From Rhodoblastus acidophilus (GTDB taxonomy: Bacteria > Pseudomonadota > Alphaproteobacteria > Rhizobiales > Beijerinckiaceae), in the NCBI RefSeq assembly GCF_025961575.1, contig NZ_JAOQNX010000005.1, forward strand, positions 62,001 to 126,000: a DNA stretch of 64,000 bases. Reading direction: 5' to 3'. A program made the position numbers and the translations under genes. Shown piece by piece: positions 48,149 through 58,920 of the stretch. The notes beneath the pieces are model-generated. The model was not told where the DNA came from, searched no databases, and saw nothing but the letters and a program-made list of their open reading frames with translations. Each line of letters opens with the position of its first letter. Position 1 is the stretch's first letter.

Positions 48149-49849
48149 TCACCTGCGAAACAGCGACACCGCCAGGAGAATCGCGAGCAAGGCGCAAAGC
48201 CCCTGCCAGAACAGCAGCGGGTTTCGTTCATAGAGCGGCGTCTTCCGCGCCACAGCGGGTCCGCCGCGTCTCGCCCCGTTCTCGATCTCGAAGGCGAATT
48301 CGAGCACGTCGGCATGGCGTTTGGCCGGATCGACGGCAATGGCCTTGAAGATCGCGCCTTCCAGCCAGGCGGGCAGATCGGGCCGCTTCGCCGTCAGCGA
48401 GGCCGGTTTGCCGAACCGGGGTTTGGTGAACGGCTCGATCTCGCCAAAGGGATAGGCGCGCGTGAACAGGCGATAAACGGTGACGCCGAGCGCGAACAGG
48501 TCCGTGGCTTCATCGCCCTGCGCGCCGGCAAAAAATTCCGGCGCCATATAGGAGGGCGTGCCCGGCGCATGGATGTCGGGAAAGTCGTCCAGTTGCGGCA
48601 GGCGCGCGACGCCGAGGTCGAGCAGTTTGATGCCGCCGTCCCGCAGCAGCAGGATGTTTTCGGGCTTGATGTCGCGGTGAATGACGCCGGCGCGATGCAG
48701 GGTCGCTATCGCGCGCGCCATGCGGGTGGCGAGCAGCGCGCCATCCTCCAGGCTGATCGGCGGCTCGCGCCTGAGCCGGGTTTCGAGCGTCTCGCCCTCA
48801 TAGAACGGCATCACCGAATATAGCCGCGTCTGGCGCTCGGGCGGCAGTTCGATGGTTTCGGCGATCCAGGGACTGCGCACGCGGCTGGCGACAAAAGCCT
48901 CGTTGATGAAGGCGCGTCGGAAAACTTCGTCGTCGGCGACCGCGGGCTTGGGAAATTTTAGCACGACAGTCTGGCTGGTGCGCAAATCTTCGGCGCGCAG
49001 CAGACGGGCGTAGCGTCCGTCGGACAGCAGCGCATCGATGCGGAAGGCGTCGACGACCGCGCCGATCTCCGGCAGGACCGAAATGGGGAGAGCGTCAAAA
49101 GTCTGAGAAATATCCTCGGCGCTGGCCGGCGGCGCGTCGAGAATGTCGATGACGAGCGCGGTGCAATTGTCGGCGCTTCCGGCCGCCAGCGCCGCGGCGA
49201 CGAGGTCCTGCGCCGTACGGTCGGGCGCGGCGCGCTGGTCCAGGATTTCGCGTAAGCTCGCGTCGCGCAGGCCGCCATGCACGCCGTCGCTGCACAGCAG
49301 ATAGCGCTCGTGCGGGCGCAAGGAAAATTTGCGGTGATCGATCGGCAGGTTGTTTTCGACGCCGACGGCGCGGCGCAAAACACTCAGGTCGCCGCGGCCC
49401 ATCACATGGTCTTCGCTGAGTTGTTCGAGCGCGCTTTCACGCAGTCTGTACAGCCTGGAATCGCCAACATGGACGCAATGGCCATCACGCCCGTCGAGGA
49501 TGAGCGCGGTAAAAGTGGTGGCCATGCCGGCGCGTTCGGGATCGACGCGGCCTTGCGCCACGATCCAGTCGTTGATGGCGCTGAGCGCGCGGGCGGCGGC
49601 CTGTGGCGCGCCGAGCGAGGCGGGCAGGCCGAAGAACCCATCGAAAAAACCGCGCACGCAAAGTTCGGCGGCGTCGCGTCCGCCCTGGCGTCCGCCGACG
49701 CCATCGGCCAGCGCGGCGACGGCGGCGCGGCGCGCGTCCACGCGCGGCCGGCCGATCCGGGCGGCGGCATAATCCTGGTTGTCGGCGCGCTTGCCTTTGT
49801 CCGAGGCGAAGCCGATCTCGAAGCGCAGGTCGTGGTCGAAACGGGACAT
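48149..49849 (-). CDS. bifunctional PP2C phosphatase/Ser-Thr protein kinase, tail-anchored
   Basis: 566 residues. N-terminal PP2C domain (about 1-235: GKRADNQDYA, ALADGVGGRQGGRD, HVGDSRLYRL, GSADNCTALVIDI, all metal-binding Asp motifs), then a protein kinase domain (about 255-520: catalytic Lys in VVLKFPKP, HRDIKPENILLL, DLG in place of DFG in LLDLGVARL, TPSYMAPEF, VDPAKRHADVLEFA) and a single C-terminal membrane segment (FWQGLCALLAILLAVSLFRR). Such fusions sit next to nitrate transporter genes in several proteobacteria (for example the Pseudomonas nirB-nasA locus, from memory). It is the last gene of the nas run, separated from narK by a palindromic repeat. Start ATG at 49849. Confidence 0.9.
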   Translation of the reverse strand: MSRFDHDLRFEIGFASDKGKRADNQDYAAARIGRPRVDARRAAVAALADGVGGRQGGRDAAELCVRGFFDGFFGLPASLGAPQAAARALSAINDWIVAQGRVDPERAGMATTFTALILDGRDGHCVHVGDSRLYRLRESALEQLSEDHVMGRGDLSVLRRAVGVENNLPIDHRKFSLRPHERYLLCSDGVHGGLRDASLREILDQRAAPDRTAQDLVAAALAAGSADNCTALVIDILDAPPASAEDISQTFDALPISVLPEIGAVVDAFRIDALLSDGRYARLLRAEDLRTSQTVVLKFPKPAVADDEVFRRAFINEAFVASRVRSPWIAETIELPPERQTRLYSVMPFYEGETLETRLRREPPISLEDGALLATRMARAIATLHRAGVIHRDIKPENILLLRDGGIKLLDLGVARLPQLDDFPDIHAPGTPSYMAPEFFAGAQGDEATDLFALGVTVYRLFTRAYPFGEIEPFTKPRFGKPASLTAKRPDLPAWLEGAIFKAIAVDPAKRHADVLEFAFEIENGARRGGPAVARKTPLYERNPLLFWQGLCALLAILLAVSLFRR

Positions 49850-54453: not shown

Positions 54454-56970
54454 TTATTCGGCGGCGACTTTTGCGGTTTTGGCTCCGAGCACGGAGAGCG
54501 GCATGAACTCGTGCATGTCCTTGCCGGCGACGCGCTCCGCCCAGGGGTCCTTGCGCGCGGCGCGCTGCGAGATCAGGAAGCGCTCGTACAAAGCTTTGCG
54601 CGCGGCGTGGTCCTCAAAGATCAGCTTGCGCAGGCGCTCCAGGCCGAACTTGTCGACCCATTTGAACAGGCGGTCGAGATAGGCGCCTTCCTCGCGATAG
54701 GCCTGCAAAATGGCGGCGCAATATTCCAGCGCCTCCTCTTCTTTATCGACATGGCCCAACAGATCGGTGGCGCGCACATGCAGGCCGGCGGCGCCGGAAA
54801 CGTGAATGTCGAACCCGGAATCGACGCAGATCACGCCAATGTCTTTGACCGTCGCTTCCGCGCAATTGCGTGGGCAGCCGCTGACCGCGAGCTTGACTTT
54901 CGCTGGCGTCCACGAGCCGCACATCAGTTTTTCCAGCTTGATGCCGAGCCCGGTGGAATCCTGCGTGCCGAACCGGCACCATTCTTTGCCCACGCAGGTT
55001 TTGACGGTGCGCAAGCCCTTGGCGTAGGCGAAGCCCGACACCATGCCCGCCGCATTGAGGGAGGCCCAGACAGCCGGCAAATCCTGCTTCTTCACGCCGA
55101 GCAGGTCGATGCGCTGGCCGCCGGTCACCTTCACCGCCGGAATCGCAAAACGGTCGGCGACATCGGCGATGGCGCGCAATTCGTCCGGCGTGGTCATGCC
55201 GCCCCACATGCGCGGCACCACGGAATAGGTTCCGTCTTTCTGGATGTTGGCGTGGACGCGCTCGTTGATGAAACGCGCCTGATAATCGTCGCGATATTCG
55301 CCCGGCCATTGGGCGACGAGATAATAGTTGAGCGCCGGCTGGCAGGACGGACAGCCGCCGGAGCTTTTCCAGCCGAGTTCCTGCATGACGGCCGGCAGCG
55401 ATTTAAGCTGCTTGTCGCGGATGAAGCCGCGCACCTCCTCGTGGGTGAGGTCGGTGCATTTGCACATGTGTTTTCGCGACGCGCCCTTGAAGGCCTCGCC
55501 GAGCGTGGCGGCGAGCAGGAGCTCCACTTTGCCGGCGCATTGGCCGCAGGAGGCGCTGGCTTTCGTCGCCGCGCGCACTTCGTCGAGCGTCGTCAGTCCC
55601 GATTGGATCGCCGAGACAATCGCGCCTTTGTTGACGCCGTTGCAGCCGCAGATTTCCGCATCATCCGGCAAGGCTGCAACGGCCGCCGTAGGGTCCAGCG
55701 TGGACCCTCCCTGATAGGCCTGGCCAAAGATCAGCGTGTCGCGAATGGCCGAAACATTCTCGCCTTTCTTCAGCAGATCGAAATACCAGGCGCCGTCGTT
55801 GGTGTCGCCGTAGAGCACGGCGCCCACGACCTTTTCGTCGCGCAGGATCACGCGCTTGTAGATGCCGCGCGCGGGGTCGCGCAGCACGACTTCATTGTTG
55901 ACGTCGTCATCGGAAAAGTCGCCGACCGAAAACAGGTCGATGCCGGTGACCTTCAGCTTTGTCGACGTCGCGGCGGGGGTGAAGCCGGCCGGCTTTTCGC
56001 CCGCGAGTTCGGCCGCCAGAATTTTCGCCATGTCGTAGAGCGGCGCGACGAGCCCAAAGGTCTGGCCGCGATGTTCGACGCATTCGCCGACGGCAAAAAT
56101 GTTCTCGTCCGAGGTGCGCATAAAATCGTCGACGATCACGCCGCGATTTGTTTCCAGGCCGGCGGCCTTGGCCAGCGTCGCGTTCGGGCGGATGCCCACC
56201 GCCATCACCACGAGATCGGCCGGCAGCACCCGGCCGTCTTTCAGGCGCACGCCGGTGACGTGGGTCTCGCCCAGAATGGCGTCGGTATTGGCTTCGGTGA
56301 ACACCTCGATGCCCCGCGCGGCGATGGCGTTCTTGAGCAGATAGCCGGCGCTGGAATCGAGTTGGCGCTCCATCAGATGCGGCATGAGATGGACGACCGA
56401 AACCTTCATGCCCTTGAGCGCGAGGCCCGCCGCCGCTTCGAGGCCGAGCAACCCGCCGCCAATGACCACGGCGTGCCCGCCCTTTGCGCAGGCTTCGTGC
56501 ATCTTTTGCACGTCGTCGAGGTCGCGGAACGAGACCACGCCGGGCAGGTTGGCGCCGGGAACCGGAATGATGAAGGGCATGGAGCCCGTGGCGATCACCA
56601 GCCTGTCGTAAGCGACGCTTTCGCCGCTCGCCGTCTCCACGCATTTCTTGGCGCGATCGATGGCGACGACGGCCTCGCCCCGGCGCAGGTCGATGTTTTG
56701 CGCCGCATACCAGGCGTCGTCGTGGATGATGATGTCGTCGAATTTTTTCTCGCCGGAGAGGACAGGCGAGAGCATGATGCGGTTGTAGTTGACCCGCGGC
56801 TCCGCGCCGAACAGCGTGACGTTCGTCGGCGTGCTGTTGCGGGCGAAAAACTCTTCCAGCAGGCGGCCCGCCGCCATACCGTTGCCGATCACCACCAGCT
56901 TTTGCGCATCTGCATCCATCGCGCGGGGGGCGCGCGGGTGCGGCTGCGGAAATTTCTCGATCTGTCCCAT
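54454..56970 (-). CDS. nirB: nitrite reductase (NADH) large subunit
   Basis: 838 residues. N-terminal pyridine-nucleotide/FAD oxidoreductase part (KLVVIGNGMAAGRLLEEF; LPADLVVMAVGIRPNATLAK; DENIFAVGECVEHRG), BFD-like [2Fe-2S] centre (CGCNGVNKGAIVSAI, CGQCAGKVE), and a C-terminal sulfite/nitrite reductase part with siroheme and [4Fe-4S] ligands (TCVGKEWCRFGTQDSTGLG and VSGCPRNCAEATVKDIGVI). It reduces nitrite to ammonium with NADH. ATG at 56970 is listed; an internal ATG at 56919 (MDADAQKLVV) is an alternative. The 328-bp region upstream, before nasS, carries a sigma54-type promoter and a two-hairpin leader. Confidence 0.95.
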   Translation of the reverse strand: MGQIEKFPQPHPRAPRAMDADAQKLVVIGNGMAAGRLLEEFFARNSTPTNVTLFGAEPRVNYNRIMLSPVLSGEKKFDDIIIHDDAWYAAQNIDLRRGEAVVAIDRAKKCVETASGESVAYDRLVIATGSMPFIIPVPGANLPGVVSFRDLDDVQKMHEACAKGGHAVVIGGGLLGLEAAAGLALKGMKVSVVHLMPHLMERQLDSSAGYLLKNAIAARGIEVFTEANTDAILGETHVTGVRLKDGRVLPADLVVMAVGIRPNATLAKAAGLETNRGVIVDDFMRTSDENIFAVGECVEHRGQTFGLVAPLYDMAKILAAELAGEKPAGFTPAATSTKLKVTGIDLFSVGDFSDDDVNNEVVLRDPARGIYKRVILRDEKVVGAVLYGDTNDGAWYFDLLKKGENVSAIRDTLIFGQAYQGGSTLDPTAAVAALPDDAEICGCNGVNKGAIVSAIQSGLTTLDEVRAATKASASCGQCAGKVELLLAATLGEAFKGASRKHMCKCTDLTHEEVRGFIRDKQLKSLPAVMQELGWKSSGGCPSCQPALNYYLVAQWPGEYRDDYQARFINERVHANIQKDGTYSVVPRMWGGMTTPDELRAIADVADRFAIPAVKVTGGQRIDLLGVKKQDLPAVWASLNAAGMVSGFAYAKGLRTVKTCVGKEWCRFGTQDSTGLGIKLEKLMCGSWTPAKVKLAVSGCPRNCAEATVKDIGVICVDSGFDIHVSGAAGLHVRATDLLGHVDKEEEALEYCAAILQAYREEGAYLDRLFKWVDKFGLERLRKLIFEDHAARKALYERFLISQRAARKDPWAERVAGKDMHEFMPLSVLGAKTAKVAAE

Positions 56971-57073
56971 AGCGGCGCTCTCGTTGCGAGACGATCCGCG
57001 CAAGGGTTCGCTGGCGAAGTTTGGGAAGGAGGACGACCCGCATCGCGGCGCAGCAGCGCCTTGACTTCACGCT

Positions 57074-57123
57074 GCAAGCCGCCGTTGGCTTGCGCGAACC
57101 GATGAACGGGGTCGTCATTGACC
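57074..57123 (-). promoter_or_regulatory. ANTAR-type two-hairpin leader of nirB operon
   Basis: On the minus strand the leader has P1 GGTC-AATGAC-GACC (57123-57110) and P2 GCAAGCC-AACGGC-GGCTTGC (57093-57074). Both hairpins have six-base loops with A at position 1 and G at position 4, the sequence rule known for RNAs bound by ANTAR regulators such as NasT. P2 has a perfect 7-bp stem. P1 starts at or within a few bases of the expected transcription start. After P2 a 6-bp pair (GCAGCG/CGCTGC, 57075-57070 and about 57058-57053) overlaps the last bases of P2, which would make the two structures exclusive. NasT, an ANTAR protein, is encoded upstream. Confidence 0.75.
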
Positions 57124-57135
57124 TGCAACAATTAA

Positions 57136-57151
57136 AGCAAGAGCGGCGCCA
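57136..57151 (-). promoter_or_regulatory. sigma54 (-24/-12) promoter of nirB operon
   Basis: On the minus strand the sequence TGGCGCC-GCTC-TTGCT (57151-57136) has the invariant GG at -24 and GC at -12 separated by exactly ten bases. The predicted start falls near 57125, immediately before the P1 hairpin. Expected because nitrogen-assimilation operons often use RpoN with NtrC; no clear NtrC binding site was found by eye upstream. Confidence 0.7.
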
Positions 57152-57298
57152 GTTTGGGTCGATCGGCTGAAGCGCTAGAAAAACCGCGGCTTTGGGCAAG
57201 TTTCGCCGTCCAGCCGGTCAGAGGCGCTCTGCTCGTCGCATGGGCGCGCGGCGCCTGTAATCGGCAAATCCTGCCAAAAAATTGAGCGACAACCGCCC

Positions 57299-58330
57299 TC
57301 AATCCGCAGGCGGGGCGAGGAGAGGCAAATCCGCCAAGTCCAGCGGGCCGCCCAGATAATTGCGGCCCAAGATTTTTGGCGCAGGCGGCTCCTGCTCGCT
57401 GGTCCAGAACGCCGCGCGCGCCAGCTTCAGGCCGGTCTCATCGAAAGCCGCTTGCCCGGCGAAGGCGAGCAGGGCCAGCAAAAACTCCGCCTGCAGCGCG
57501 CTCACTCCGGTCGCCGCCGCATCGAGCCGCAGCCAATCCTTTTCGAGCGCCGGGCGCACCGCCGCTTCGGCAAGGTCGGGCGCAAGCGAGTCCGCGACGA
57601 TCTGGCGAAACTCCGCGATATTGGCCTCACCCCAAAGCGCGGCGCGGCGGAGCGCCCGCGCCGCCGCCTTGGGAGCGTCCGGCGCCGCTTCCGCCGCGCG
57701 TCGCGGAAACGCCAACACTTTTTCCGGGCAATCGCGCATCAGCGCCAGGCAGGGAAACAGGATCTGCGAGGCGCCGCGCTGCTGCGAAAAGGTGTTCCAG
57801 GGTTCGCCGACGCAAAAGCCATCGATATAGCCGCCCTCAATGCTTTGCGGGATCAGCGGCGGCGGCGTCACCGTCAGGCTGACCTGATCGCGCGATAGGC
57901 CGCCGAGCCGCAGCCACAGCAGCAATTGATAATGATGCATGGACCAGGGGAAGACATGGGCGAAGCGCGGCTTCTTTTCATCCGCGATCAGCGCCGCCAG
58001 CTTTTTCGCGGAAGGCGTGGGATCGCCGGCGATTTCTTTCGCCAGGGCCGGCGAAACCGAGATCGCATTGCCGTCGAGGCCCAGAGCCGCGGCGCCGATC
58101 ATCGGAACATGAAACCCGTCGAGGCCCAGCGCCGAGGCGAGCACGGCGGGCGCCAGCATATGCGCGGCCTCGTAAAAGCCGAAGGCGAGCTTGTCGCGCA
58201 GATTGGCCCAGGAGGTTTCGCGATGCAGCGCGAAAACGACGCCTTCCTCGCGGTCGAAATGTTTCGCCGCGGCCACATGGAGCAGCGCGGCGTCGGTGAG
58301 CGGCAGATAGCCGATGCGCAAGGTTTTCAT
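57299..58330 (-). CDS. nasS: nitrate sensor NasS (NrtA/CmpA-like binding protein, cytosolic)
   Basis: 343 residues. Periplasmic-binding-protein fold of the nitrate/bicarbonate group: TLRIGYLPLTDAALLHVAAA, REEGVVFALHRETSWANLRD, AGYIDGFCVGEP-type (GGYIDGFCVGEPWNTF). There is no signal peptide, which fits NasS, a soluble sensor that binds and holds NasT until nitrate or nitrite is present. It overlaps nasT (ATGA at 58327-58330). Confidence 0.92.
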   Translation of the reverse strand: MKTLRIGYLPLTDAALLHVAAAKHFDREEGVVFALHRETSWANLRDKLAFGFYEAAHMLAPAVLASALGLDGFHVPMIGAAALGLDGNAISVSPALAKEIAGDPTPSAKKLAALIADEKKPRFAHVFPWSMHHYQLLLWLRLGGLSRDQVSLTVTPPPLIPQSIEGGYIDGFCVGEPWNTFSQQRGASQILFPCLALMRDCPEKVLAFPRRAAEAAPDAPKAAARALRRAALWGEANIAEFRQIVADSLAPDLAEAAVRPALEKDWLRLDAAATGVSALQAEFLLALLAFAGQAAFDETGLKLARAAFWTSEQEPPAPKILGRNYLGGPLDLADLPLLAPPAD

Positions 58331-58920
58331 TTCAGCAGCTCCGCCGCCGTGAGGATGGAGCGGGCCACGTCCGCGATTTTTTTGCCTTCGTTCATGGCGA
58401 CCTTGCGCATCATGGCGTAAGCCTGCTCCTCCGGGATTTTCTTCGCCTTCATCAACAGAGCCTTGGCCTGGTCGATGACCTTGCGGTCGGCGAGCTGGGT
58501 TTTCGTCGCCGCCAATTCATCGCGCAGCCGCGCAAAAGCGTTGAAGCGCGAGATCGACAGGTCGACGATGGTCTTGACCCGCTCCTTCTTCAGTCCATCG
58601 ACGACATAGGCGGAGACGCCGGCGTCGATGGCGGCGGTGATCATGGACGCGTCGGAGACGTCGGCGAACATGGCGACCGGGCGGGCGTTGGCGCCGGAGA
58701 TGCGAATCATTTGCTCCAGCACGTCGCGATTGGGATTCTCCAGATCGATCAGGACGATATCCGGACGGATCGCCCCCAGTCGCGCTTCAAGGTCGAGGAA
58801 GGAGTCGAGCACGACCACGTCGGTATGGCCGGCCTCGGTCAAGCCTTCCCGCAAGATGGCGGCGCGCACCGGGTTCGGGTCGGCGATAACAATGCGTAAG
58901 TCTCTGTCGGACAAGAACAA
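58327..58920 (-). CDS. nasT: ANTAR-domain transcription antiterminator NasT
   Basis: 197 residues. N-terminal receiver-like domain (LRIVIADPNPVRAAILREGL, DIVLIDLENPNRDVLEQM), in which the Asp pocket is partly changed, then a C-terminal ANTAR RNA-binding domain (about 135-195: DRKVIDQAKALLMKAKKIPE and EEQAYAMMRKVAMNEGKKIA, the three-helix ANTAR core). It binds two-hairpin leaders to prevent termination, matching the structure before nirB. Here nasT precedes nasS, the reverse of the usual naming order. Together with NasS it would control the nirB operon. Confidence 0.93.
   Translation of the reverse strand: MFLSDRDLRIVIADPNPVRAAILREGLTEAGHTDVVVLDSFLDLEARLGAIRPDIVLIDLENPNRDVLEQMIRISGANARPVAMFADVSDASMITAAIDAGVSAYVVDGLKKERVKTIVDLSISRFNAFARLRDELAATKTQLADRKVIDQAKALLMKAKKIPEEQAYAMMRKVAMNEGKKIADVARSILTAAELLK

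Follow-up and report, generated by a model that had tools for sequence, protein, structure and literature searches.

A sigma54-started leader before the nirB operon of Rhodoblastus acidophilus as a probable variant NasT target with a proposed P1-capture switch

The 64,000-nucleotide (nt) stretch of Rhodoblastus acidophilus DNA analysed in this study (contig NZ_JAOQNX010000005.1, positions 62,001 to 126,000; called the window below, with all coordinates counted from its first base) contains the nirB nitrate-assimilation operon, whose leader is the subject of this report. The leader is probably, though not securely, a sigma54-started, variant target of the ANTAR protein NasT, in which capture of the first of two hairpins, P1, would act as the switch. 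On the minus strand the genes run in the order nasT, nasS, nirB, nirD, molybdopterin oxidoreductase and MFS transporter, and three of them frame the leader:

58327 to 58920, minus strand: nasT, ANTAR RNA-binding regulator (ANTAR domain, 64 bits)
57299 to 58330, minus strand: nasS, presumed nitrate/nitrite sensor of the NMT1_2 family, adjoining nasT
54454 to 56970, minus strand: nirB, the gene behind the leader, with its ATG at 56970

The gap between nasS and nirB is 328 nt long and holds a sigma54 site, P1 and the second hairpin, P2. An earlier reading of the sequence alone (the first-pass annotation) had placed nasT-nasS directly upstream of the nirB leader; this was borne out, with the ANTAR, NMT1_2 and nirB identities all confirmed. 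A scan of the genome returned a single ANTAR protein, the nasT of the window (67.3 bits), together with one match to sigma54 and one match to NtrC above the curated cut-off. The first part of the leader is composed as follows:

57136 to 57151, minus strand: sigma54 promoter TGGCGC-CGCTC-TTGCT (TGGCGCCGCTCTTGCT), GG-N10-GC, predicted +1 at 57125
57110 to 57123, minus strand: P1, ANTAR hexaloop hairpin GGTC-AATGAC-GACC, its start lying 25-28 nt past the T of TGG across the nirB relatives compared
57094 to 57109, minus strand: linker between P1 and P2, in which a small hairpin (CCG..CGG) is possible and the last 7 nt (57100-57094, GGTTCGC) form the 5' strand of helix A
57074 to 57093, minus strand: P2, ANTAR hexaloop hairpin GCAAGCC-AACGGC-GGCTTGC, with strong covariation over 22 leaders

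The sigma54 consensus is TGGCAC-N5-TTGCW, and TGGCGCCGCTCTTGCT matches it well, with GG-N10-GC flanked by TGGC and TTGCW. The usual distance from a sigma54 promoter to its start predicts +1 at 57125, two bases before P1, in agreement with the start near that position proposed in the first-pass annotation. Six-base loops with A at position 1 and G at position 4 (A1/G4), also reported there, were found in both P1 and P2. Hairpins of this kind with stems of at least 4 base pairs (bp) are common in the window (83 on both strands), and just one tandem pair is formed; this pair alone has a sigma54 site lying 22-31 nt before it. In 20 shuffles of the window, tandem pairs averaged 0.15 and none had a promoter. 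The leader combines two marks of an ANTAR target RNA, dual A1/G4 hexaloops and an ANTAR protein encoded in the same genome. Its folding energy is unremarkable, both for the 61-nt P1-P2 stretch (z -1.70, with 12 of 200 shuffles as good) and for the 158-nt leader (z -1.20, 21 of 200).

The layout is retained among relatives. Eight of the 11 genomes of the genus have a nirB match at E<=1e-60, and all eight carry the leader, the T of TGG and P1 being 27-28 nt apart; TGGCGCCG...TTGC is kept in all eight, and the sequence upstream of it diverges. Three genomes of the same genus (G123, G152 and G153) gave no nirB match at that threshold, and G123 was also without a NasT match at E<=1e-20. Among 164 NirB-like loci (same-genome duplicates included; loci are numbered with the prefix L), 27 have a sigma54 site with an A1/G4 hairpin 20-60 nt downstream, the first such hairpin starting at +25 to +28 in 25 of them and at +53 in L159 and L232. 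Altogether the layout was seen in the eight genus leaders and 14 more. The earlier claim of a NasT-type two-hexaloop leader with a sigma54 start predicted at the foot of P1 is supported in every nirB-bearing genome of the genus and in other genera. The comparison set, called type II, consists of these 22: the distinct leaders among the 27 loci after removal of same-genome duplicates, without L219, which hardly differs from L218, and without the classic leaders L159 and L232 with their long T-run, and with the addition of L252, retrieved by covariance model R1, and of L254-L256, retrieved with a pattern in which P1 was fixed. In L252, GT replaces GC at -12. The four added leaders, from another family of the order, show a similar layout before an nrtA-like gene, a label given only for its match to NasS (31-34%) and for a start that looks Tat-like by eye.

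Model R1, built from six relatives with the window excluded, recovers the window with 78.7 bits (E 3.8e-16) and matches nothing else in that genome at E<=0.01; outside the genus it performs poorly (best L210 at 27.6 bits, L223 at 19.1). Four of the five matches to other genomes that R1 returned from a scan of the order (L248-L251) were set aside as chance, having neither a nas/nir homologue within 1.5 kb nor a GGTC-type P1. The pattern of sigma54 site and P1 occurred in one of 385 genomes of the class (the genome of the window) and in four of 297 genomes of the order (the same genome included), and at loci L010-L089 no leader combining a sigma54 site with hexaloops lay directly before nirB at the thresholds of the script. 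The nirB leaders of L159 and L232 have a hairpin with a long T-run and a hexaloop 53 nt from the promoter; they are of the classic kind, and both leader classes therefore occur before nirB within one family. At L147, promoter, P1 and P2 are present and P2 ends 36 nt before the start codon; this leader fits neither class and is left out of the counts.

Covariation in both stems had been named as support for the leader, and the outcome differs between them. Over the 22 leaders, 97.7% of the P1 and P2 stem cells are paired, and 29 cells show double changes compared to 9.1 in shuffled alignments (none of 500 as high). All except one of these 29 lie in P2, which covaries strongly; P1, with a single double change in 22 leaders, is nearly invariant, and for this stem the expected covariation did not appear. 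Outside the genus the stems are the sole independent test, because A1/G4 was used for selection there. Position 1 of the P2 hexaloop is G rather than A in L128 and L141, an exception to the A1 rule.

Downstream of P2 the leader contains the following elements:

57064 to 57070, minus strand: helix B, 5' strand GTGAAGT, just after P2
57047 to 57060, minus strand: hairpin V, variable (GGCGC-TGCT-GCGCC)
57032 to 57039, minus strand: anti-P1 strand (aP1) GGGTCGTC, complement of P1 loop positions 4-6, the 3' arm and the next base
57014 to 57020, minus strand: helix B, 3' strand ACTTCGC
57005 to 57011, minus strand: helix A, 3' strand GCGAACC, which pairs with GGTTCGC just before P2

Which of the two hairpins the downstream sequence fits was examined by computing, for loop plus 3' arm, the energy of the best duplex with the downstream 100 nt and comparing it to 200 shuffles, with 10 of 200 or fewer as the threshold. 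The classic leaders used for comparison were a family set and a narK RNA set (RF03032, discussed below). The family set comprised 15 hand-picked leaders in the mononucleotide test (13 usable) and all 23 listed family leaders in the dinucleotide test (13 with a recognisable tandem pair and enough sequence); the narK set comprised the 11 usable of 19 loci, with L275 left out as coming from the same genome as L160. With dinucleotide shuffles, the P1 side passed in 18 of 22 type II leaders and in none of 24 classic leaders (0/13 family, 0/11 narK), compared to 3/22 and 19/24 (8/13 family, 11/11 narK) for the P2 side. Mononucleotide shuffles gave 18/22 versus 1/24 (1/13 family, 0/11 narK) for the P1 side and 3/22 versus 22/24 (11/13 family, 11/11 narK) for the P2 side. 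The aP1 of the window was equalled by none of 300 dinucleotide shuffles on an energy-free score and by none of 200 on duplex energy, and aP1 was not a criterion in selecting type II leaders. It is thus well supported, by comparison of sequences, that the downstream complement in type II leaders fits P1 and not P2, and that these leaders are without a P2-side terminator.

Since aP1 pairs with the 3' arm of P1 and with positions 4-6 of its loop, P1 and the P1:aP1 helix would be mutually exclusive. The G4 of P1 lies within the toehold of aP1; this base was shown to be important for NasR (PMC3369931). In the window, holding P1 and P2 or holding P1:aP1 gives ensembles that are 0.2 kcal/mol apart, a near equality of the kind expected of a protein-operated switch.

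P2 and helices A and B probably form a three-way junction, a structure that is well supported by the comparison, firmly within the genus and in part beyond it. Helices A and B were sought jointly in three ways. A tight search with genus-based limits reached 10 of 200 shuffles or fewer in 10 of the 22 leaders; a relaxed search, which allowed an overlap of at most 2 nt between the 3' strands (seven leaders made use of it), found the pair in 20 and reached the threshold in 17; and a search with no overlap and dinucleotide shuffles found it in 19 and reached the threshold in 12, including all eight genus leaders, with the window at 4 of 200. The strands of A and B differ among species and retain their complementarity (GTGAGACTGAC/GTCAGTCTCAC, GTCACGG/CCGTGAC, TTCGCGG/CCGTGAA), as read from a strand table that was typed by hand, partly trimmed, and without L209, L240, L255 and L256. 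For the eight genus leaders an alignment fitted to the model (A3) was used, because plain MAFFT placed helix B of L176 and L120 wrongly. In this alignment the nested structure has 96.3% of its cells paired, a covariation of 0.212 compared to 0.141 in shuffled alignments (none of 500 as high), and six pairs changed on both sides compared to 2.8 (5/500), the double changes falling in A, P2 and B; slid controls were far lower. In the window itself, A and B belong to the optimal fold of the 158-nt leader and also form in 179 nt when P1 and P2 are held; by computation their strength there is marginal.

The leader of the window has all the features by which type II is defined (aP1, A and B, no T-rich tract), an assignment that is not independent, the class having been defined in part from this leader. 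On comparison of sequences, the promoter, P1 and P2, aP1, A and B (firmly in the genus) and the absence of a T-rich tract are supported; we infer NasT binding at this leader, which way the switch turns and the action of Rho. In the mechanism proposed here, transcription would start at the foot of P1, and P1 and P2 would fold as the RNA emerges. NasS would sense nitrate or nitrite and release NasT, which would hold both hexaloops, and the rest of the leader would then fold into A and B, joining P2 in the three-way junction. Without NasT, aP1, being a copy of the P1 5' arm with a toehold to loop positions 4-6, would displace the 5' arm and capture the 3' arm. By position P1:aP1 crosses A and B, and in a nested fold it would exclude them and free the C-rich strand after aP1. 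Expression would then be lowered without an intrinsic terminator, perhaps by Rho. The switch itself is likely. Rho, pausing or translation could provide the output step; Rho is a guess, one that the C-rich, G-poor stretch directly after aP1 in the genus leaders would suit but does not prove. The C/G ratio of the 40 nt after aP1 is 2.47 in the window, 2.47-3.55 in genus leaders and 1.24-2.85 in the other 14 leaders, with means of 2.18 for type II, 1.64 for type I (12 leaders) and 1.80 for random stretches.

Initiation would be set by sigma54, probably with NtrC, on nitrogen limitation. One weak candidate site for NtrC was found:

57272 to 57288, minus strand: candidate NtrC box CGCTCAATTTTTTGGCA, 137 nt upstream of the first base of the promoter

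Two other forms of the NtrC consensus had no match in the window. The candidate box has one mismatch to the NtrC consensus of Paracoccus denitrificans used for scoring (PMC5424462) and was equalled by 6 of 200 shuffles; among the best matches in seven relatives, the same offset (-136) was found only in L179 and L180.

Several results weigh against the capture of P1 by aP1 in a junction-forming leader. On the cruder energy-free score, between 0 and 70 of 300 dinucleotide shuffles were as good over 18 leaders, with only 6 of the 18 at or below 5%, and when P1 was matched with downstream regions taken from other lineages, the fit was almost as good (mean rank 0.35). Because P1 hardly varies, there is little covariation between it and aP1 (L217, and partly L209 and L240). 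The energy of P1:aP1 minus that of P1 plus P2 ranges from -4.0 to +10.0 kcal/mol over the 22 leaders, so that in several of them the nested P1:aP1 fold could not win and a pseudoknot would be needed. In the stricter search A and B were missing in L209, L240 and L256 and weak (12-40 of 200) in seven others; the best pair found in L120 without overlap was a non-homologous one, the homologous one being given by the tight search; and with P1 and P2 held in 185 nt of the window A and B did not form. Further pair types showed no excess over shuffles, either in P1 and P2 over the 22 leaders (253/500) or in the nested structure of the genus (399/500). In addition, A1/G4 (in the screen yielding 27 of 164 loci) and G4 of P2 (in a separate step) were selection criteria, and loop conservation outside the genus is therefore partly built in. 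Finally, the C/G ratio of the window is reached by 11% of random stretches, so a C-rich stretch of this kind is not rare.

There are several potential explanations for these leaders besides a P1-capture switch at nirB. A more general form of that reading, in which a second mode of ANTAR action without an intrinsic terminator lets NasT control nirB, and an nrtA-like gene in another family, through capture of P1 by aP1 and the breaking of a junction that hides a Rho-loading strand, is possible and distinctly tentative. Translational control, with alternative folds exposing or hiding the ribosome-binding site of nirB, is rather unlikely: a CCTTTGC/GCAAAGG-type pairing touches the Shine-Dalgarno sequence in L121 and L122, but it is missing in the window (both by eye). 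When P1 and P2 were held, accessibility of the site over 21 leaders did not change consistently, rising clearly in L121 and L141, falling in L122, L128 and L210, and changing less in the rest, and occlusion of the ribosome site was rejected as a general explanation on account of this inconsistency. Similarly improbable is a static pseudoknotted scaffold of A, B and aP1 that presents P1 and P2 to NasT, or protects the mRNA, with no switch. The position of aP1 in the loop of B and of P1 just outside A has the geometry of a pseudoknot, and in several leaders the fold with P1 and P2 held is far more stable (by up to 10 kcal/mol) than the nested P1:aP1 fold; the scaffold is opposed by the exclusion of P1 by P1:aP1, with aP1 taking bases of the 3' arm and loop that the ANTAR hairpin needs.

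It is less probable still that the leader works by ordinary ANTAR antitermination, a weak, U-poor intrinsic terminator competing with P2, which was the idea of the first-pass annotation. The 6-bp pairing on which that idea rested, GCAGCG/CGCTGC (57075-57070 with 57058-57053), does exist and overlaps the 3' arm of P2. As a terminator it was rejected, since the nearest relative, L120, does not retain it (by eye), and the P2 side pairs downstream at chance, with 68 of 200 dinucleotide shuffles as good in the window and a mean rank of 0.49 over the 22 leaders. A terminator consensus scan found nothing after P2 in the window (shuffle mean 1.0), its one terminator-like site being at 57298-57284, just after nasS, and the intrinsic terminator overlapping P2 and followed by a U-tract that marks a classic ANTAR leader is absent from the window. 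In none of the 22 type II leaders do the 140 nt after P2 include six T in eight bases; L123 has one run of five T, inside the loop of hairpin V. Antitermination is the mechanism described in firmicutes and proteobacteria, where binding of P1/P2 prevents the terminator (PMC3369931, PMC8934654), and relatives do show such leaders before other genes, mostly transporter genes: other post-nasS leaders of the family, most of which precede genes other than nirB, often have a terminator with P2-side pairing and then a T-run (by eye), and loose automatic detection found a terminator in 24 of 48 post-nasS regions of the family. That type II leaders no longer respond to NasT, the RNA being a relic and NtrC with sigma54 the sole regulators, is very improbable: the lack of a terminator and the G at position 1 of the P2 loop in L128 and L141 are in its favour, and the strongly covarying P2 stems, the retention of both loops in 8/8 genus leaders (all nirB loci found there were examined) and the nasT-nasS pair directly upstream in the window are against it.

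If the P1-capture switch is true, the same protein-RNA recognition unit would be wired to a different output in close relatives, and the outputs could be compared side by side. In the proposed view NasT would set read-through or expression on nitrate, within a compact leader, and searches requiring a terminator that overlaps P2 would miss the type II class. Farther along the same gene cluster, after the MFS transporter, PP2C phosphatase and protein kinase domains share one reading frame on the minus strand (48149-49840, start codon not fixed).

No Rfam family was found in the window at its gathering score. The narK RNA (RF03032) gave matches below its cut-off of 43.2 bits, at P2 (17.5 bits) and at the promoter plus P1 (14.6 bits). 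The 23 matches to this family in the genome of the window at E up to 10 were discarded as chance, because 13 of 14 control genomes also matched. At E<=0.001 the family was found in 15 of 299 genomes of the phylum, 11 of them above the cut-off. Of the 23 places listed in this phylum search, 20 were inspected (L262-L281, at about positions 1490-1650 on the match strand of each). TGGC-N9-GC stands at the start in 18 of the 20 (the exceptions being L272 and L276), a tandem A1/G4 hexaloop pair was found by script in 11 of the 19 tested, all 20 have at least five T in eight bases downstream, and 14 have a NasT homologue no more than 1.5 kb away. The Rfam narK RNA thus appears, as judged from these loci, to be a classic leader made of a sigma54 promoter (model positions 1-15), ANTAR P1 and P2 and a downstream T-run, and its annotation would improve if it were recognised as a promoter plus NasT target. 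The promoter-plus-ANTAR layout singled out in the first-pass annotation is present at nirB; because the narK RNA loci share it, it belongs to a known kind and is less special than was claimed. The literature searched contained no paper found to name narK RNA or RF03032, and its titles and abstract openings, which leave most subscription papers outside their coverage, mentioned no ANTAR leader in which P1 is the target.

Compared to known systems, the nirB leader therefore combines shared and distinct features. Like the window, the narK RNA has a sigma54-like element, P1 and P2 before nitrate genes; unlike the window, which stays below the cut-off of the family, its P2 side pairs downstream near a T-run. 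The literature drawn on for ANTAR mechanisms also includes PMC8164766, PMC3795266, PMC5424462, PMC6759348 and PMC12316311. In the EutV/EutW eut leaders, a dual hexaloop with P1, then P2 and a short linker is likewise found, and P2 is embedded in the intrinsic terminator (PMC8934654), whereas the contested hairpin in the window would be P1. Actinobacterial ANTAR RNAs have dual stem-loops and seldom precede a predicted terminator (PMC8164766), and these systems often act on translation; in the window, about 100 nt separate the end of P2 from the start codon. The closest functional parallels are the NasT/NasR leaders of Klebsiella nasF, Azotobacter nasAB, Paracoccus nasA and Bradyrhizobium nosR, which also join an ANTAR protein to a hairpin leader before nitrogen-oxide genes, and Pseudomonas aeruginosa nirBD is counted among leaders of this type. 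In Klebsiella, Ntr control is combined with NasR antitermination (PMC5424462), and in Paracoccus nitrate dissociates NasS-NasT and NasT binds the nasA leader (PMC3795266). The described NasT/NasR leaders are explained by a terminator, whereas the leader of the window has no T-rich tract, a downstream complement that fits P1, and helices A and B in a probable junction with P2.
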